Shown: positions 8,136-24,900 of the stretch, one piece after another
Numbering within the stretch: the stretch's first letter is position 1
Layout: each line of letters begins with the position of its first letter
Source of the DNA: a virus
Strand: one strand, 5' to 3'
IMG/VR virus record: IMGVR_UViG_3300029787_000212
Coordinates: 1-31,400 of that record
DNA: 31,400 bases
Made by a program: the position numbers and the translations under genes
Notes under the pieces: generated by a model
Told to the model about the DNA's origin: nothing
Databases searched by the model: none
Seen by the model: the letters and a program-made list of their open reading frames with translations, nothing else

Positions 8136-8180
8136 GCCTACAACTAGCAATTTATTTTAATTCTTATAGGTTGTGTAGGC
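8136..8180. promoter_or_regulatory. Inverted repeat over a late promoter, possible operator
   Basis: GCCTACAAC at 8136-8144 matches the complement of GTTGTGTAGGC at 8170-8180, apart from a 2-base insertion in the right arm. The arms flank the -10 and cover most of the -35 of the minus-strand promoter proposed at 8154-8182. That arrangement suits a repressor or activator site. The regulator is not known; the XRE protein at 16648 is a candidate. Confidence 0.4.
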
Positions 8181-8675: not shown

Positions 8676-8704
8676 TTGACAAGATAGTCATAATTTGTTA
8701 TAAA
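8676..8704 (+). promoter_or_regulatory. Near-consensus sigma70 early promoter
   Basis: TTGACA at 8676-8681 is followed by a 17-base spacer and TATAAA at 8699-8704: perfect -35, 5/6 -10, ideal spacing. A second TTGACT lies 11 bases upstream (8665-8670). Transcription would start near 8711, giving a leader of about 43 bases before the first early gene. The strength suggests immediate early expression by host RNA polymerase. Confidence 0.8.
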
Positions 8705-8753
8705 ATACCTATGTTGAATATATACAAAAAACCAACAAATGAAAGGGTAAAAA

Positions 8754-11443: not shown

Positions 11444-11713
11444 TTAAACATTTTTATTATACTTGATCTTGAGCTTATCTGCAATTTCTTTTTCTAAGCT
11501 AGGATTTTTTTCAACAGCTTCCCAATATTCCCTGACAATTCGGTCAATTTCTGCGTCAGAGATATTAATACTGTCTAAATAGTTCAATAGACTAGGCAGG
11601 GGGGGTGTTTTCGGTAGTTGCTTCTTGTTTCTGTTGATTGCTTGTTGGTATCGGAAGTCAAAAGACTTCCTAGTCTTGTTAATAATATTGTGTATTAACT
11701 TTTTATTAGCCAT
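11444..11713 (-). CDS. Hypothetical basic protein, 89 aa
   Basis: An 89-residue protein, basic at the N-terminus (MANKKLIHNIINKTRKSFDF) with a Pro-rich linker PKTPPLPSLLNYL and an acidic helical C-terminus (ISDAEIDRIVREYWEAVEKN). No family is recognised. It is the last gene of the minus unit 13370-11444 and starts just downstream of two palindromic repeats and an AT-rich tract, so it may be controlled from them. Confidence 0.65.
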   Translation of the reverse strand: MANKKLIHNIINKTRKSFDFRYQQAINRNKKQLPKTPPLPSLLNYLDSINISDAEIDRIVREYWEAVEKNPSLEKEIADKLKIKYNKNV

Positions 11714-11717
11714 ATTC

Positions 11718-11750
11718 TAACTAGTATATATTTATATTATATCTTTATAT
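11718..11750. other. AT-rich tract beside palindromic repeats
   Basis: The stretch is almost entirely A and T, with runs of TATATA and TATAT, apart from one CTAG near its left end. It lies between the start codon of the 89-residue gene and two GGTG-N9-CACC palindromes. It could be a promoter region or an easily melted element of a replication origin. Confidence 0.4.
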
Positions 11751-11752
11751 CA

Positions 11753-11792
11753 GGTGTAATTATTTCACCTATCTAGGTGCAAAAGTTTCACC
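11753..11792. promoter_or_regulatory. Two tandem 17-bp palindromes (GGTG-N9-CACC)
   Basis: GGTGTAATTATTTCACC at 11753-11769 and GGTGCAAAAGTTTCACC at 11776-11792 share the outer GGTG and TTTCACC and have the same length. They are separated by 6 bases (centre to centre 23 bp, about two helical turns). They lie in the 86-bp gap between the winged-helix gene and the 89-residue gene. They look like dimer binding sites: an operator or replication iterons. The binding protein may be the adjacent winged-helix protein or the XRE protein. Confidence 0.65.
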
Positions 11793-11799
11793 CTCACTG

Positions 11800-12216
11800 C
11801 TAGACCTTCCTAGCTTGTTTCAACAAGATGACCCCTTCTTTCTCTGCTTGTTTTAACTTTCTTTTTTCGTACAAAATCTTTTGTTGCTTACTCATTTTAG
11901 TTCTTAATCGTAGGTTGTGCAAAAGGATTGATTGAAAATCAGGATTATCTCTAAATATAAATCTATTGGTTTTACCTTTGCCTCTATTTTGCCATGTTAT
12001 ATGACCCAATAACTGCAATCTATCCAAATTTCTCACCAAAGTTTTAGACGATTTAAGCTTCAATCTTTTCTTTAGATACAGATGGCTAGGGGTACACCCT
12101 TTAGGAGCTGTCCTGAGCCTTCTGAGGAGCATTAAAAGGCATTTCTGAGTAGGTGTTAAAACCTGATCGTCTATTAATTCATGCTCTACTTTTAAGAATG
12201 GTTTACTTTTGTTCAT
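11800..12216 (-). CDS. Winged-helix DNA-binding protein (HTH_36-like)
   Basis: A 138-residue protein with VEHELIDDQVLTPTQKCLLM, then CTPSHLYLKKRLKLKSSKTL and VRNLDRLQLLGHITWQNRGK, ending GKTNRFIF. Helix, PS-x-x-x-L turn, recognition helix and a beta wing (residues about 10-95) match the HTH_36-type winged helix found in phage regulators and replication proteins. The C-terminal 40 residues are very basic. Two 17-bp palindromes follow the stop codon within 10 bases, which supports a site-specific DNA-binding role such as replication initiation or autoregulation; this last step is inference. It overlaps the oxygenase gene by 14 bases. Confidence 0.7.
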   Translation of the reverse strand: MNKSKPFLKVEHELIDDQVLTPTQKCLLMLLRRLRTAPKGCTPSHLYLKKRLKLKSSKTLVRNLDRLQLLGHITWQNRGKGKTNRFIFRDNPDFQSILLHNLRLRTKMSKQQKILYEKRKLKQAEKEGVILLKQARKV

Positions 12217-12874
12217 TTTGGGTCATCTCATCAAATATAATAGTAGTATTAAAGCTAAAAGATATTCTCTCAGCAGTTGTATCATCACTATTAAATGGAT
12301 AAACAAAATGCTTTAAATTTGCTGGAAACAAATAATAGTCTGCCAACATAGGTTGTACCAAATAATTAGCATTATTGAAAATGTTTTCAGACCCTTCACA
12401 AAACTCAATCCACCCTCCAACCTGATGATGTTTGGGTGCATTAATATGAGGTTTCATTTTAGGTAATTTTAAATATCCAACACAAGACAAGTCTGGACTT
12501 AAAGCTTTGTTAGTGAAATGTGTGTGGGTATGTAATGGGTTATAATCATTTTTCTTTTGTGTATTTGTCCATGCAGAATTAATTACACATCTTGCCATTT
12601 TATTATTTTTATAATGGCTTTCAACATAATGTTTAATAATATGGTCAAAGTATTTTTGCTTCCATTTCAACATAACTTCTGGACTAATTAATAATTGTTT
12701 ATAAATAGTTCCAGCAAGTTTATCATCAAAGGCATATTGTTTTGCTTTGTCTGGGTTTTGCCTTATGTCGTATAAATCTTTTAAAAAATCTTCAATTAAT
12801 TCTTTTGGCAAAGATGACTTGGCAATCGTTGAGCCGAAAGGTTTTAATAATCTACATTCTATTTTATCACTCAT
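12203..12874 (-). CDS. 2OG-Fe(II) oxygenase-like protein
   Basis: A 223-residue protein. Residues 110-120 read DYNPLHTHTHF and are followed by SCVGYLKLPKM, the pattern of phage 2-oxoglutarate/Fe(II) oxygenases in which an H-x-H/D pair binds iron. The distal ligand is probably H189 (FPANLKHFVYPF), and R203 in ERISFSFN would bind 2-oxoglutarate. Such enzymes hydroxylate protein or nucleotide substrates; cyanophages and pelagiphages often carry them. The substrate is unknown. It overlaps its downstream neighbour by 14 bases and its upstream neighbour by 8. There are three histidines (115, 117, 119), so the exact iron ligands are uncertain. Confidence 0.75.
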   Translation of the reverse strand: MSDKIECRLLKPFGSTIAKSSLPKELIEDFLKDLYDIRQNPDKAKQYAFDDKLAGTIYKQLLISPEVMLKWKQKYFDHIIKHYVESHYKNNKMARCVINSAWTNTQKKNDYNPLHTHTHFTNKALSPDLSCVGYLKLPKMKPHINAPKHHQVGGWIEFCEGSENIFNNANYLVQPMLADYYLFPANLKHFVYPFNSDDTTAERISFSFNTTIIFDEMTQNEQK

Positions 12875-13414: not shown

Positions 13415-13442
13415 CTTATAACCATTCTAAAACTAATTGCAA
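13415..13442 (-). promoter_or_regulatory. Promoter for minus unit 13370-11444
   Basis: On the minus strand TTGCAA (13437-13442) is followed after 16 bases by TATAAG (13415-13420). It lies 45 bases upstream of the PD-(D/E)XK-like gene. AAGGG precedes that gene's ATG by 11 bases. Match is 4/6 and 5/6. Confidence 0.5.
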
Positions 13443-13449
13443 ATACTTA

Positions 13450-13476
13450 TTGACATCTTAATATAAATAGTAAATA
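13450..13476 (+). promoter_or_regulatory. Divergent promoter for recombination unit
   Basis: TTGACA at 13450-13455 is a perfect -35. A -10 could be TAAATA at 13471-13476 (15-base spacer). TATAAA at 13462-13467 is a better hexamer but too close to it. With the first choice transcription would begin within a few bases of the exonuclease ATG at 13485. Confidence 0.5.
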
Positions 13477-16647: not shown

Positions 16648-17031
16648 ATGGCAAAATGTCAAGATAGTAAAGAAACAATCATCAGTCAGCATATAGGTAA
16701 GAAAATAAGAAGAAGAAGAATTGAGTTAGAGATGACTCAAACTGATCTTGGAAATCATCTACCTACAAGCTTTCAACAAATTCAAAAATATGAGAAAGGA
16801 ACTAATGCTGTGTCATCACCAAAGCTATTGTATTTATCATTAGCTTTGAAAGTTCCAGTGTCTTATTTCTTTGAAGGATTTGATATTGTTAAAGGTGTAA
16901 GTAATATTGCTTACAAAGATAATCCACCAGAACTGCATAGAGGTAATCAGGTAAAAAATGCAAAGTATTATCCTGATCCACAAGCAGTTGAAGATCAAGT
17001 GATTATAGAAAAGTTAGAAAAAATAATTTAA
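16648..17031 (+). CDS. XRE-family transcriptional regulator
   Basis: A 127-residue protein. Residues 16-76 form a Cro/C1-type helix-turn-helix: IGKKIRRRRIELEMTQTDLG, then SFQQIQKYEKGTNAVSSPKL and ALKVPVSYFFEGF. The FQQ(I/V)QKYEKG recognition helix and P(V)SYFFE end are typical of the alphaproteobacterial subgroup. The C-terminal 50 residues are polar and without a peptidase motif. AAAGGAGAAC precedes the ATG. It closes the second plus-strand unit and may repress or activate the early or late promoters; which sites it binds is not shown. Confidence 0.88.
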   Translation: MAKCQDSKETIISQHIGKKIRRRRIELEMTQTDLGNHLPTSFQQIQKYEKGTNAVSSPKLLYLSLALKVPVSYFFEGFDIVKGVSNIAYKDNPPELHRGNQVKNAKYYPDPQAVEDQVIIEKLEKII

Positions 17032-21992: not shown

Positions 21993-24900
21993 CTTTTACC
22001 GCCAAATTCTTTTATCATAGTGTCAAGATATTCTTTACCTAAATAACTATCAAGAAGTCTTCTCTCATCTTTTGATAATTTTTCTATCTCATATCTCATC
22101 AAGTAAGGAGCTAAATCAGTGTCTCTTTTTATTTTTTCAGAAGCATCTTTTTTAATATCTGTTAAAGCTTTTTTTAAAACAATAACTTTTGTTTCTTCAT
22201 TTAATCCCTGATAGTAAGGAGAATCAACAAGAACAGATATACCTATAGCAATTTTAGGTGCTATTATTTTTTTTAATGCTCCATCTAATTCAGGTATTCT
22301 TGTGCTTTTAAAAATTTCATTTCTTGTAAATTGTAATCTGTCAAACTCTTTTTCAGCAGAATTTTTAGGAGCTTGAAATGTAATTCCAGTAAACTGTCTT
22401 ACACCAGGTGATTCCCTTCTAAGTATTCTTGGAACTGGTATGCCTTGATCGTTGTACTCAATGGATGTTGAAGATGTTAATGGAGGATAATCATTTGGAA
22501 CTGGTATTCTTTTTTTAAATTCACCCACAAAAGGGTCTTTAGATATATCTTTTACAACAGTCATTTCTGGAAAAAATGAACCAGCTAAATCTGTCCATGT
22601 TTGTAAAGGAACAGCAAAACCTGATAATAATTTTCCAGCAAATTTTTCCAATTCTTCTCCTAATTTTATTTTAGGATTTTGACCAGTAGTTGCTTGAACA
22701 ATTCTATCTACTAAATATAAACCAGTACCAGCTCTTATACCTAAAAAAGCAGCAGCAAAATCTTTTAAACCTATATTTCTTAGTGTTCCATCTTGTTTTC
22801 TTTTAACTAAGTCAGCAACAAACAAATAAGAAGCAAATGGATTTAATGCTCTTGTATCAATAGTTCTATTTCCAACATTAAATTCATACCACTTTTCTCC
22901 TGCATAAGGTTGACTTCTCATCCAGTAAGCAAGACTTAACATTCCTGTTCCTAATACAGCTCTACTTATTTTAGATGTATCTCCTGCTTTTAAAGCTAAT
23001 CTTTCACCTTTGCTTAAAAAATTTAACAAACCAAGCGGACTAAAATCTATATGAAATTTTACTGAGTTCATTAAAAATCTTGGAAAAGGTAGAAGTAAAG
23101 AACCTGTAAAAGGAATTTTATTTACAAGATTTATAAAAGCATTAGCAAATTGTTCATACCCACCACCATACTTATCAAAATTTTTAGCAAATGTTACCTC
23201 AAGAGCATCATCTACAGCACCTGCTATATCTTCTTTTCTAATGGTTAATGTTTTATTGTTTTGAATTATTTGTCTTAAATCTTTTCCTTTATAAAATTGT
23301 TTATTTGATGCAATTCTTTCAGCAAGTGAAGATTGAAATATAGCTCTCCTTGTAATAAATTCTTGACCTTTATTTACAACATTCAACAACTGCACAGCAG
23401 CTTCTGTTTTATCTAATATACCACCTTTTGCAGCTTCTTTAAAACCTCTTGCAACAACATCATTACTAAATCTTAAAAACAATCTATCTTGTTCTTTAGG
23501 AAAAGATGAAAGAATTTTATCTGTTTCTTTTTTTACTATCTTAAAATTTTTAGGTCTAAATTGTCTAAAAATATTTCCCATTCCTTTGAGTGATTCTAAG
23601 GGATCAGCAAATTGAGTTATTTTTAAATTTGGATTTATTTTTTTTGCTAAATTTTGCATACCAGCATCAAGACCTTTTTGCATTACATTTAAACCACCTC
23701 TAGTTACTTGTGATTCAAAGTTTCTTACAGCAGTTGCTAACTGTGTAACCATAAGACCTCTACGAATATTATCTAACCTTCTCCAAAATCCTCCTGCTGT
23801 ATCTAAAAGATCACTTTCTTTTAAAATCATTTCTTTAAATTGTTTATCTGCACCTGGAACTTTTGCTAATTTATTAAGCTGTCTTTGTATTACCGATAAA
23901 GATTGTAAAGTACGACCAGCATCAGAAGCATTATAAGAAAAAAATTTGGCAAAGTCTTTATCTGTTACTTTATATTTATTTAATATTTTAATAAATGTAT
24001 CATCAGCAACTCTGCCTGTATAAATTAAATCAGCTATTTGTTCATTAATTTTTAAATTAGGATTTCTTACAACTTTACCTTCTTTTAAAATTTCTAATGA
24101 TGCTTTTTCAACTGGTTCAGTTACAGATTTTTTCAAAGCAGGTCTTGTTATAGCAGGTGGAACATCTACACCTTCTAATGTTTTTTTTGTTCCAAGTGTA
24201 TCTTTTATGCTTTGTGTTTGTTTATATTTTTCCTCAGCAATAGTATCTAATGTTTTTAATTTATTTTTTGATTCATAAATTTTATCTTGATTTTCTCTTG
24301 ATAAAACTTTGATATTATCTAAAACTGTTTTTTCATTTAATTTAGCACCAGCACTAATTTTAACATTATCAGCTCCTTTGGTAATGTTTGCTAAAACTTC
24401 AAAAGGAATACCAAGTAAAGCACCCTCAGCAAACATTTTTGCTCTAGCAGCATCTTCGCTGTCTGTGCCTACAGCTTGTAAATAATTAGTTAATGGATTT
24501 CTAAATGTTGGAGATGACTCTACTAAATTTGATAATCTTTTTTCGTAAGGAGAAAAAGAAACTTGCTCTGCCAAACCACCTTTACTTAAAACTTGTATTG
24601 ATCTTAAAACTTTGTTTTTAAATTTTGGAATTTTTAATAAATCACCTGCTTTATCCACACCTTTAAACCCTACAGCAAAACCTAAGAGGTCTCTTGATAA
24701 ACTGCCACCAAAATAATCAGGTTCTTCTATTGTAGGTAATTTAAGATCAATAATATTTTCCTCTACATTAGGTAATTTTTTTGCAACATAATTAGTAAAA
24801 TCAATCGTACCTTGAGCTAAATCTCTAGCAGAACCACCATAAGTTCTTTTTATAACTTGTTCTTTAAAATCTTTCCATGCTGAATATTTAAATTCATCTT

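Follow-up and report, generated by a model that had tools for sequence, protein, structure and literature searches.

The DNA analyzed here, a 31.4-kb record of a virus contig (referred to in its full length as the window), encodes a large terminase that shares 58% identity over its full length with the terminase of Pelagibacter phage HTVC106P and ∼50% with those of HTVC010P-type pelagiphages, together with a portal protein, an ERF-type annealing protein, a 2OG-Fe(II) oxygenase, and an XRE regulator. On the minus strand, a gene for a 138-residue winged-helix protein (11800-12216), proposed below to be a short O-like replication initiator, is followed by a gene for an 89-residue protein (11444-11713), and the intervening DNA contains two GGTG-N9-CACC palindromes and an AT tract. 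The palindrome nearest the winged-helix gene spans 11776-11792 (GGTGCAAAAGTTTCACC on the plus strand and GGTGAAACTTTTGCACC on the minus strand), and the one adjoining the AT tract spans 11753-11769 (GGTGTAATTATTTCACC and GGTGAAATAATTACACC, respectively); neither is assigned a strand. Each is 17 bp long, and their centers at 11761 and 11784 are separated by 23 bp, exactly where a first-pass annotation of this DNA had placed them. That annotation was also right that the pair adjoins the end of the winged-helix gene, although the gap from the nearer palindrome to the stop codon (11800, minus strand) measures 7 bp rather than 8.

GGTG-N9-CACC was matched three times in the 31.4-kb window against an expectation of 0.10, and none of 100 shuffles reached three matches. 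The third match (24156-24172) is a single copy within a structural gene. A scan of the whole window for pairs of same-arm palindromes (4-base arms with at least two G/C, within 60 bp) returned only the candidate origin pair and an unrelated GTTG pair at 8170/8197.

The AT tract (11714-11751, no strand assigned) separates the palindromes from the start codon of the 89-residue gene and is proposed to be a DNA unwinding element. It had been described as nearly pure AT; its A+T content is 87% (33 of 38 bases). By nearest-neighbor energies, no other 30-bp duplex among the 31,371 positions of the window is as unstable as 11721-11750; the tract also holds the second-lowest distinct 40-bp stretch by stability. 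Cumulative GC skew, which had been suggested as a check, was calculated for the window and gave no origin signal at the site. At third codon positions, minus-strand genes show positive skew to either side of it (0.11 and 0.17), and because skew follows gene direction, the check is uninformative. Matches to the DnaA box (TTWTNCACA) in the window numbered 7, with 7.0 expected, and none was at the site. A scan of the minus strand between the winged-helix and 89-residue genes, covering promoters of the σ70 type only, revealed no σ70-like promoter that the palindromes might overlap. Elsewhere in the window, good σ70-like letters (TTGACA, then TATAAA or an AT-rich −10) are present at 8680-8712 and ∼13430-13470, where they precede rightward early genes, in contrast to the intergenic stretch 11714-11799. 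A terminator-like hairpin on the plus strand (11653-11670, GGAAGTCAAAAGACTTCC) lies within the 89-residue gene and might halt rightward transcription ahead of the proposed origin.

Relatives of the locus were located with the winged-helix protein and with the 89-residue protein as queries. In those with enough sequence, the winged-helix gene, the two sites, the AT tract, and the 89-residue gene form a cassette, the last gene always being beside the site. Both palindromes are kept in 11 of the 12 close relatives that cover the site, with left arms GGTG or GGTA and right arms CACC; the palindrome centers vary among relatives and the arms are constant. The second palindrome is degenerate in L013, which derives from the same contig as L172. 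In L174-L177, both copies read GGTA-N9-TACC, again at a spacing of 23 bp (one copy in L175 contains undetermined bases), and the winged-helix protein, as measured for L174, is ∼57% identical to that of the window. In L173, a perfect GGTA/TACC site is accompanied by a half site 23 bp away, and L144 has two imperfect sites 22 bp apart. The AT tract (ATAAAGATATA..ATATAAATATAT-ACTAGTTAG) is nearly invariant across the relatives compared, including L174-L177, and four long records, one of them the window, contain the palindrome pair exactly once apiece. The comparison with relatives that the first-pass annotation had called for therefore finds pair, spacing, and AT tract conserved, and the outcome it had named as adverse, loss of the palindromes from close relatives that keep the gene, is not what was observed.

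Two further features around the cassette vary among these relatives. The 2OG-Fe(II) oxygenase gene (12203-12874, minus strand), which in the window lies between a 167-residue gene and the winged-helix gene, is missing from that place in L144, L173, and L174, so that the cassette holds together without it; it looks like an accessory gene that has been inserted or lost. Past the AT tract, L173 contains three tandem copies (730-784, AACTAGTTAACTAGTTAACTAGTTAG) of a conserved ACTAGTTA element that is present once in the window and may be a further protein site.

The variation in the palindrome arms bears on which protein would recognize them. XRE-type repressors bind palindromic operators, and an XRE gene (16648-17031) is located in the same early region and is present in relatives, such that the palindromes might be operators of this repressor. 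Its recognition region (SFQQIQKYEKGTN in one protein and TFQQVQKYEKGTN in the other) is, however, nearly unchanged between the window and the relative G001, in which GGTA takes the place of GGTG in the arms, which makes the XRE protein an unlikely ligand. Nor is there a palindrome pair at the promoter region of the XRE gene itself, and on these two grounds the XRE protein was rejected as the cognate repressor, a role we regard as very improbable.

The 138-residue protein matched phrog_270, annotated “replication initiation protein,” at 1.2e-5 and HTH_36 at 24.9 bits, just under the curated cut-off of 25. Its orthologues score 29-38 bits with HTH_36, above the cut-off, and down to 9e-11 with phrog_270, so it is through them that the HTH_36/PHROG 270 threshold is reached. 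No match to Phage_rep_O (PF04492) was obtained at E ≤ 0.001, the winged-helix profile found nothing among PDB sequences, and tblastn of this protein and of the L174 orthologue against phage GenBank records gave no match. The AlphaFold2 model (mean pLDDT 75) comprises a winged helix at residues 22-88 followed by a long helix at 94-127, which could serve dimerization; a C-terminal helicase-loading domain is not evident. Foldseek comparison of the predicted fold gave weak-score likeness to MarR/Rrf2-type regulators, and the top matches included the plasmid centromere-binding winged-helix proteins pNOB8 AspA and TubR. These last matches would fit a centromere-like partition site bound by the winged-helix protein, but the best E value was ∼0.01, matches between winged helices are generic, none of the genes scanned was recognized as encoding a partition ATPase, and the sequence families point to replication initiation. 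A partition role was rejected accordingly and has, in our estimate, almost no probability.

The product of the neighboring gene, an 89-residue protein without an assigned function, is predicted with modest confidence to be all-helical. Family and fold searches yielded nothing credible for it. That it is a partner of the initiator is a speculative possibility. In a separate case, Armadillo-repeat matches to L045 were discarded, as they cover a repeat-encoded segment of L045.

Support for a replicative role comes from IMG/VR, which was scanned for pairs of GGTGNANNNNNTNCACC sites separated by 1-22 bp. Such pairs were found in at least 119 stretches, compared with 15 in all for scrambled arms, at least two of which (L145 and L152) also resemble HTH-type initiator genes by eye. 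The longest open reading frame enclosing the sites was taken at 109 of the listed loci, and among these matches 92 of 109 frames matched phrog_270 and 88 of 109 matched HTH_36; “replication initiation O-like” and “DnaD-like helicase loader” were other frequent matches. Many of the contigs behind the 92 of 109 are kin to each other, so the figure denotes a strong association rather than 92 independent cases. Neighboring sites among the matches listed were mostly 21-24 bp apart, and GGTG-N9-CACC repeats at this spacing are thus linked to a gene of the HTH_36/PHROG 270 type in these phages as in the window. The initiators concerned, for example relatives of the SfV, ST64B, and mEp460 replication proteins, resemble the window in palindrome type, spacing, and families; they differ in that their repeats are coding (Gly-Ala-Pro-rich) within genes mostly of ∼250-330 residues, whereas those of the window are intergenic. 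As an annotation rule, it is suggested that paired GGTG-N9-CACC sites spaced by 21-24 bp be taken as a marker of HTH_36-type initiator genes in many phages.

The same evidence weighs on the possibility, raised in the first-pass annotation, that the pair is an operator for the 89-residue gene. If it were an operator only, the winged-helix protein would be a transcription factor for that gene, and perhaps for its own, and replication would start elsewhere. Palindrome pairs spaced by about two turns commonly serve as operators, this pair is directly upstream of the 89-residue gene, related genes in HTVC010P-type phages carry the annotation “putative transcriptional regulator,” and the MarR/Rrf2-like fold predicted with weak scores points the same way. 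Set against this are the lack of a σ70-like promoter on the minus strand between the genes and of a second pair at another promoter, family matches that are to replication-initiation families, the occurrence of these palindromes within the coding region of initiator genes in other phages, a setting in which they are unlikely to act as operators, and conservation of the AT tract over its full length and not just over a promoter-sized element. The operator proposal is weakened by these results and disfavored as an account of the sole role of the site, for which we hold it to be unlikely; a dual use, in which the initiator may also repress the 89-residue gene from the same sites, is plausible.

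Taken together, the association of the palindromes with initiator genes, their constant spacing, the AT tract, and the presence of one pair per record give strong comparative support to the origin reading of the first-pass annotation. From these sequence comparisons, the site is most likely a phage replication origin of a minimal λ-like type, with the 138-residue winged-helix protein as a short O-like initiator. Counted against an origin are the presence of only two iterons, their position outside the gene, unlike in most initiators of the IMG/VR scan, the imperfect sites in L013/L172, L144, and L173, the want of an evident helicase-loading domain in the protein and of a recognized P-like gene, the HTH_36 score below the cut-off, and the want of GC-skew support.

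In phage λ, O dimers bind inverted-repeat iterons, and a neighboring 40-bp AT region opens (PMC5043065). The minimal unwinding unit of λ consists of two iterons and the AT tract (PMC7466680, citing Dodson 1986; PMC5043065), and the window site has this composition. Like oriλ and O, it combines palindromic iterons beside an AT-rich tract with a linked winged-helix initiator gene and a reliance on host replication enzymes; both the multiple iterons with internal inverted repeats (here two conserved 17-bp palindromes) and the adjacent, easily melted tract of a λ-type origin are present. By contrast, λ has four iterons inside the O gene, whereas the window has two, of different arm sequence, that lie 3′ of the gene and end 7 bp past its stop codon. 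The site is not of the strict λ form because its iterons are adjacent to and not inside the initiator gene, its mode of action being a separate matter. Further differences are the length of the initiator (138 residues), the absence of a recognized P-like loader, and the lack of a PF04492 match, and the label of λ O orthologue was withheld given this last point and the location of the iterons. The kind of origin proposed is a known one, from which the window departs in having its iterons outside a shortened initiator gene.

In the proposed minimal mechanism, the 138-residue protein would bind each 17-bp palindrome, probably as a dimer, and, with the palindromes about two helical turns apart, the bound complex would strain the DNA and so melt the AT tract next to them (11714-11751). 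The helicase, primase, and polymerase of the host would then be recruited to the bubble, the helicase perhaps via the 89-residue product. We infer each of these steps, namely binding, dimerization, melting, and helicase recruitment. Recruitment of host enzymes is invoked because the phage has no detected DnaB-type helicase or PolA-type polymerase: DnaB_C and DNA_pol_A were absent from the window, three long relative contigs, and HTVC106P, which upholds the earlier statement that the window has no replication enzyme for the two families tested. Among the proteins scanned, no member of the P-like helicase loader family was recognized.

Comparable arrangements were found in isolates of the pelagiphages, a group reported to be highly abundant in ocean waters (PMC10504331). 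HTVC106P gp70 scored 39 bits with HTH_36 and 1.8e-12 with phrog_270 and is followed by a 91-residue gene (gp69), the same order as in the window. The gp70 gene contains two GAYTACCC-N7-GGGYARTC-like palindromes 47 bp apart with scores of 15 and 14 out of 16, whereas the runner-up in the genome reaches 11; GGTG..CACC occurs in HTVC106P as just two lone copies away from gp70. In HTVC010P-type phages, the winged-helix gene is the one annotated “putative transcriptional regulator,” and in 8 of 10 of them it carries at codons 99-113 a 12-base repeat pair (at least 11 of 12 bases identical) at a spacing of 21-22 bp. Only 1 of 37 control genes reached 11/12 identity, and 0-17 of 300 codon shuffles matched the score for those eight phages. 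Single repeat pairs are modest, but their shared position makes the set convincing. In HTVC203P and HTVC204P, the winged-helix gene has no significant repeat pair.

Both HTVC106P and the HTVC010P-type phages thus resemble the window in having a winged-helix gene with repeat pairs close to, or beyond, the stretch that encodes the winged helix, and in HTVC106P this gene is of the HTH_36/phrog_270 type and is followed by one of ∼90 residues. They differ in their arms (GAYTACCC..GGGYARTC and GATAGCC.., respectively), in the location of the repeats within the gene, and, for HTVC106P, in the 47-bp spacing. Pelagiphage replication has so far been described only as relying on the host, and a literature search for pelagiphages and replication origins turned up no paper whose title or abstract dealt with the origin of such a phage. 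According to a published analysis, the HTVC010P-type pelagiphage Skadi has no polymerase, helicase, or primase of its own and possesses a λ-like helicase loader (PMC10504331). It is conceivable, though we would advance it only tentatively, that pelagiphages of several groups share a stripped-down λ-like replicon, with an initiator as short as 138 residues and as few as two iterons that co-evolve with it, that in the window's group the small helical protein is a new helicase-recruiting partner for the SAR11 machinery, and that the “putative transcriptional regulator” genes of HTVC010P-type phages are initiators with the origin inside. These genes merit re-examination as replication initiators, and, with a target that is compact and present once per genome, the question can be put to a direct test, also in HTVC106P and HTVC010P-type phages that are in culture.

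Two observations were made in addition on the isolates. The “putative transcriptional regulator” gene of HTVC034P (L183) contains at codons ∼99-120 three near-tandem 21-bp units (ATGGGTATTAAAGAACAC..) unlike in sequence the GATAGCC repeats found in other phages of the HTVC010P type, as if a switch in iteron specificity had occurred. HTVC024P gp26 (L160:8415-8969) has a DnaA C-terminal DNA-binding domain (Bac_DnaA_C, 6e-16), and HTVC010P gp46 (L161:26998-27531) resembles it by eye.
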